Shown piece by piece: positions 1,687 through 1,776 of a stretch of 20,948 nt of DNA. Under the pieces are notes generated by a model. The model saw only the letters and a list, made by a program, of their open reading frames with translations, searched no databases and was not told where the DNA came from. Position 1 is the stretch's first letter. The number at the start of each line of letters is the position of its first letter. The position numbers were made by a program, and so were the translations under genes. Source of the DNA: a virus; IMG/VR virus record IMGVR_UViG_3300025887_000180, positions 1 through 20,948 of that record; one strand, given 5' to 3'.

Positions 1687-1700
1687 AATTGTCAGTGCAG

Positions 1701-1776
1701 GTTTGCCGACAACAACAGTTACCTTAGGCGTCAGTAACGCAGTTGTTGAGGGGTTCGATTCCCCTGCTAGACACCA
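1701..1776 (+). ncRNA. tRNA-like element with T-arm and CCA but no D-arm
   Basis: The 3' part is classic tRNA: a T-arm AGGGG-TTCGATT-CCCCT (1749-1765), a 7-base acceptor strand GCTAGAC (1766-1772), discriminator A1773 and CCA (1774-1776). No canonical cloverleaf can be completed. Instead, 1701-1707 (GTTTGCC) pairs with 1766-1772 at six of seven positions (two wobbles, one C-C). The 39 bases between the linker and the T-arm form one long hairpin: CAACAAC/GTTGTTG (1710-1716 with 1742-1748), a 1-versus-3-base internal loop, then GTTAC/GTAAC (1718-1722 with 1734-1738) and an 11-base loop. Total length with CCA is exactly 76 bases. It lies 14 bases after tRNA-Arg, and its CCA ends 19 bases before the next start codon. 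It could be a decayed tRNA or a functional tRNA-like RNA; the sequence alone does not decide. Confidence 0.5.

Follow-up and report, generated by a model that had tools for sequence, protein, structure and literature searches.

A phage tRNA-like RNA with one long arm at the anticodon-arm position, apparently from an undescribed family

A gene for a tRNA-like RNA is located at positions 1691–1776 on the plus strand of the marine phage record IMGVR_UViG_3300025887_000180, the 20.9 kb of which were analysed as a whole and are called the window here. In this RNA an acceptor stem, a T-arm and an encoded CCA are combined with a miniature D-arm and a single long arm which carries an 11-base loop. A complete copy, including the loop octamer AGGCGTCA, is found on at least 52 other contigs of uncultured phages in IMG/VR (a count made by hand over contig names) in about 20 variants, and compensatory base changes beyond chance, as expected of a structured noncoding RNA family, were detected among them. 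As judged from these sequences the RNA belongs to a real and apparently undescribed family and is not a broken tRNA.

Locus and folded plan

In the window a glutaredoxin gene is followed by a canonical tRNA-Arg (UCU; 1610–1686, identified by ARAGORN and Rfam), the tRNA-like RNA, and the gene of a 146-amino-acid protein (1796–2236), the latter three all on the plus strand. The 5' start of the RNA is 4 bases past the end of tRNA-Arg. Its predicted mature form extends from G1 to CCA, and full-length matches of CM R1 were obtained in relatives. The protein, taken for a nuclease in a preliminary description of this DNA, has no Pfam match, and in relatives its gene is not invariably the neighbour. 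A mechanical open reading frame with a TTG start (1703–2236) passes through the tRNA-like RNA; since the variation among relatives tracks base pairing and not codon positions, ATG 1796 is more likely than TTG 1703 to be the true start of this gene. Further upstream, directly after the ribonucleotide reductase (RNR) gene, the motif AGCATGTGNNTAAACTGCTTA is located at 1331–1351 and at no other place in the window (expected number of copies, 0.04). Of 186 loci 59 have the first 19 bases of the motif, among them the isolates SIO1, P12053L and ICBM1-3, and in L016, L055, L102 and L121 these bases immediately precede the tRNA-like RNA; the motif is possibly a phage promoter.

The acceptor stem, as read from the sequence, is formed by GTCAGT (1691–1696) and GCTAGAC (1766–1772) with A1769 bulged out, and four of its six pairs show double-sided changes among relatives. 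The preliminary description had proposed an acceptor with six of seven positions paired. The number of six pairs stands, the frame does not, and the U-G reported there as third pair was a product of that frame, pair 3 of the conserved frame being C-G. Adjacent to the acceptor is a mini D-arm of 10 bases, GCAGGTTTGC (1697–1706, GC-AGGTTT-GC), with a GG as in the D-loop of tRNA. It had been overlooked when one hairpin was thought to replace both the D and the anticodon arm. It is present in all members with only position 1704 variable, even in those retrieved by patterns which do not require a mini D-arm.

The long arm is built from 7 base pairs, an internal loop AACA/GCA, 5 base pairs, and the 11-base loop CUUAGGCGUCA. 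CGACAAC (1707–1713) and GTTGTTG (1742–1748) make up the outer helix, GTTAC (1718–1722) and GTAAC (1734–1738) the inner one, the second pair of which changes on both sides. The 5' side of the internal loop (1714–1717) reads AAYA in most members and the 3' side (1739–1741) GCA, ACC, or GCC; the terminal loop CTTAGGCGTCA occupies 1723–1733. A single long arm with 12 pairs at 1710–1748 had already been described, and the arm is real, but not in that register. Pairing of 1710–1716 with 1742–1748 shows no double-sided changes and is broken in some variants, whereas the conserved register, 1707–1713 with 1742–1748, is paired in 100% of cells and has three pairs with double-sided changes among relatives. 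The slip by three bases is made possible by the repeat CAACAACAAC.

The T-arm AGGGG TTCGATT CCCCT (1749–1765) is perfect and covaries in L108 (TAGGG/CCCTA). Both the T-arm and the encoded CCA (1774–1776) are exactly as first reported; discriminator A73 together with CCA (1773–1776) is shared by most members. A 5-base-pair T-arm with CCA in register occurs at two places in the window, namely in tRNA-Arg and in the tRNA-like RNA, and in none of 100 dinucleotide shuffles of the whole window. The plain folding energy is ordinary (z = -1.0); the case for the structure rests on covariation.

Covariation and carriers

Members of the family were collected by pattern scans with the loop, with the 5' half, and with the D-arm and T-arm alone. 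The scan by loop brings back the D-arm and the scan by D- and T-arm brings back the loop, so that two independent routes meet in one family; close relatives have the same interval, and very divergent members were reached by the scan with D- and T-arm alone. In 11 aligned variants compensatory change was found in 10 of the 25 base pairs, a value as high as this being reached by 0 of 500 shuffles. The structure given above is paired in 97.1% of cells and has ten pairs with 18 double-changed cells, counts which exaggerate the number of independent events as the 11 variants share kinship; slid versions of it attain at most 53% paired. The same fold, with one pair added and with ten double-changed pairs, was obtained by RNAalifold without a supplied structure. 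When 19 variants were parsed, the divergent ones by hand, all 124 outer pairs (13 distinct helices) and 92 of 96 inner pairs (11 distinct helices) were formed. Swapped strands still pair 85–87% in this set, many variants being alike, and the test on the 11 aligned variants is therefore the stronger one.

Even in members in which every helix is different, the mini D-loop, the octamer AGGCGUCA, the T-loop, and the loop length of 11 bases are fixed. L140, L150, L153, L159 and their groups have nearly no helix sequence in common with the window and show the same plan in the same places. Both the octamer and the length of 11 are found in all 19 parsed variants, the loop reading NYWAGGCGUCA with the exception of L140, which has C at the third place. 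The acceptor is irregular in several members, with either a bulge or a mismatch at pair 6. The L105 and L150 groups have a bulge at the same place, after pair 3, an argument for regarding the bulged acceptor seen in the window copy as tolerated and not as a sign of decay. CCA is absent in L108 and L171, and the L150 group has T73. Two other pairings were discarded: a hairpin GCGU/RCGC, which has no covariation and is broken in L121 and L123, and the pairing TTGTC/GACAA, formerly put forward as a switch, which is not conserved (L003, L004, L104).

The window record is related to the Cobavirinae of Rhodobacteraceae (SIO1, P12053L, ICBM1-3, CRP-4/5), and its host is suggested by these relatives alone. 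The RNA is carried by phages as different as Cobavirinae-like podoviruses, a T4-like contig, and a contig of 300 kb (L174), and it often lies within tRNA arrays. By reading of its proteins the genes of L153 appear T4-like, and L159 encodes a portal-like protein. In one lineage the RNA is found 2–5 bases past tRNA-Arg and before the 146-amino-acid protein gene or an HNH-like gene. Other lineages lack tRNA-Arg at this place, and the RNA is flanked by RNR on one side and by glutaredoxin, PhoH, or another gene on the other; the L105 group has it near tail and terminase genes, and in L140, L150, L152, L155, L156, and L170 it is 1–6 bases from tRNA-Leu, tRNA-Ser, or tRNA-Arg, with the tRNA genes of L170 coming after it. 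With neighbours as varied as RNR, glutaredoxin, HNH, PhoH, portal, and tail genes, the RNA is not bound to one gene. An HNH-like endonuclease follows it in place of the 146-amino-acid protein in L096 (around 2698) and L108 (around 6369), a swap which marks the spot as a site of gene exchange.

The RNA is absent from nine isolate genomes (eight Cobavirinae and CRP-7), and it was not found by DNA-similarity searches of isolate phages. No tRNAs were reported for the group in a cobavirus survey (PMC6775973). In P12053L, ICBM1-3, CRP-4, and CRP-5 the glutaredoxin and 146-amino-acid protein genes overlap, so that the site offers no room for the RNA in the annotated isolates. In a check of bacterial genomes one exact core pattern had three matches in 84,980 genomes, none with a T-arm or D-arm, a search which a diverged host homologue could escape.

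Comparison with known RNAs

ARAGORN did not recognise the RNA as a tRNA, Rfam yielded nothing above the level of the T-arm, and among the matches listed for the tRNA model RF00005 there was none to it even at E≤10. As these RNAs are missed by ARAGORN and Rfam, a set of phage genes in tRNA arrays has apparently been overlooked. With canonical tRNA it shares the layout of acceptor, T-arm and elbow, the TTCRATT T-loop, the GG of the D-loop, CCA, and the location in tRNA arrays. Unlike canonical tRNA it has a D-stem of 2–3 base pairs with a loop of 4–6 bases and an acceptor of 6 base pairs, at times bulged, and it lacks the anticodon arm and the variable loop. From the marks of a canonical tRNA the T-arm and CCA were thus found, while a 5-base-pair anticodon stem with 7-base loop and U33 is absent from the 19 variants. 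These have a single bipartite arm with an 11-base loop, in agreement with the earlier remark that no normal anticodon loop can be placed. For a class II cloverleaf, a 7-base anticodon loop, and an intron in the anticodon arm no arrangement was found that agrees with the variants.

Plant-virus tRNA-like structures (e.g., RF00233) are likewise viral tRNA mimics with a CCA end. They are, however, the 3' ends of RNA genomes and contain an acceptor pseudoknot, whereas the RNA described here is encoded in the tRNA arrays of DNA phages; the Rfam plant-virus model scored 11.3 bits against a gathering score of 40. In the engineered tRNA scaffold acceptor, T- and D-arms are retained and a cargo hairpin replaces the anticodon stem-loop (PMC3753655). 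The same principle of shell plus hairpin applies here, the differences being that the phage RNA is natural, has a shrunken D-arm, and carries a fixed cargo loop. Allo-tRNA and tRNA-Sec are natural tRNAs of noncanonical shape (PMC7609411) and differ from it by an anticodon arm, a long variable arm, and a 12–13-base-pair acceptor branch. No account of such an RNA was found in the literature searched. The preliminary description had called for a covariance search and an alignment of related phages, and had named a long arm without compensatory changes or a cloverleaf in close relatives as results that would speak against its proposal. Compensatory changes are present in the long arm and no relative has a canonical cloverleaf, which supports the suggestion made there that this phage tRNA-like RNA forms a new class.

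Possible function and a wider class

On balance, the sequences favour a conserved phage family of non-decoding, processed tRNA mimics whose invariant loop would be recognised in trans by a conserved partner. The RNA would be cotranscribed with tRNA-Arg and excised like a tRNA, by RNase P at G1 and by 3' trimming to CCA. The acceptor would be stacked on the T-arm, with the GG of the mini D-loop probably set against the T-loop to form the elbow. This tRNA shell would provide stability and maturation, and the long arm would offer the loop NYWAGGCGUCA to its partner, via base pairing or protein binding. In tRNA geometry a 12-base-pair arm with an internal loop cannot set an anticodon at the normal distance, and decoding is unlikely because the long arm has at least 12 base pairs plus an internal loop. 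Conservation centres on the elbow of D-loop and T-loop and on the 11-base loop, while the helices retain pairing only, a pattern that would be expected if a ligand loop were presented by a stable tRNA shell. That a tRNA shell without decoding keeps one loop unchanged in phages of very different kinds suggests a conserved target in the host and a nontranslational use of phage tRNA arrays. With 86 bases and one 11-base loop the RNA is also a small, defined object for the study of non-decoding tRNA-like RNAs.

The octamer AGGCGUCA has its exact complement in UGACGCCU at positions 1826–1833 of E. coli 23S rRNA, a sequence also present in an Oligoflexales 23S rRNA; a chance match to E. coli rRNA is expected for 6.6% of octamers, and one to rRNA common to both species for 1.6%. 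This universal 23S site is a weak, post hoc lead for the target of the octamer. Inside the window no loop target above chance was found. A complementarity of the window-type loop to 16S rRNA was discarded, as it was a match by eye using stem bases which divergent members do not share, and the 16S rRNA of L183 lacks ACTGACGC.

A rather unlikely alternative is a decoy, a tRNA mimic which would occupy or sponge a host enzyme that handles tRNA or cuts it in defence. Phages do use tRNAs against tRNA-cutting defences (PMC11555353, PMC10264068), and a fixed loop on a tRNA shell, encoded within tRNA arrays, would fit. The known cases, however, concern functional tRNAs and not decoys, the 11-base loop does not resemble the anticodon loop, 7 bases long, that tRNAs have, and a single loop shared by many types of phage would require one enzyme of wide distribution. 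It is improbable that the RNA is a processing signal in cis, at which cuts by RNase P and 3' tRNA nucleases would delimit tRNA-Arg and the mRNA downstream of it. Its position between the two in the window agrees with this, but a plain T-arm and acceptor would suffice, leaving the invariant 11-base loop and the D-loop unexplained; moreover downstream genes vary, some copies are located between tRNA genes, and in L170 tRNA genes follow.

Still less probable is a tagless relative of tmRNA, in which a charged tRNA-like domain would bind SmpB/EF-Tu and stalled ribosomes, a long helix taking the place of the anticodon arm. The likeness to the tRNA-like domain of tmRNA (RF00023 and relatives), pointed out in the preliminary description, holds for the layout of acceptor, reduced D-arm, long helix at the anticodon-arm position, T-arm, and CCA, and for nothing beyond it. 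The closed hairpin of about 40 bases leaves no room for a tag, the absence of which had been noted before, and pseudoknots are lacking. The alanine identity pair G3-U70 is absent, pair 3 being C-G or U-A in 11 of 11 aligned variants, and the Rfam tmRNA models reach only the 17-base T-arm with 10–11 bits. A decayed tRNA, as was also considered, or a chance fold is hardly conceivable: the bulged acceptor of the window copy and the ordinary folding energy stand against covariation and strict loop conservation, and neither relaxed constraint nor a cloverleaf in any relative was found.

Besides the putative trans-acting mimics, the scan by D- and T-arm returned RNAs invisible to ARAGORN with the mini D-arm GCAGGTTNGC, a paired acceptor, a T-arm, and unrelated central arms (L136, L139, L144, L146, L149, L161/L163, L167, L169, L172, L176, L177, L179, L182). 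In L136 and L149 the central arm has the 11-base loop CRGAACTAGTC. An acceptor pairing of at least 5 pairs abutting the mini D-arm was found in 13 of 25 non-family hits, which include ordinary tRNAs with the motif elsewhere, as compared to 8.5% for swapped strands. These sequences give a strong lead to a wider mini-D class of tRNA-like RNAs. Tentatively, a natural phage 'tRNA-chassis' class might be envisaged, consisting of a minimal shell with the mini D-arm GCAGGTTNGC and exchangeable central hairpins. The AGGCGUCA family would be one type, and every type would have a conserved host partner of its own, here possibly 23S 1826–1833. If this were true, the AGGCGUCA type may act on host ribosome assembly. 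As a separate observation in a tRNA array, ARAGORN detected a permuted tmRNA with the tag GNTNYSYRMAA at 1684–2062 of L173, amid the tRNA genes of a 245-kb viral contig.
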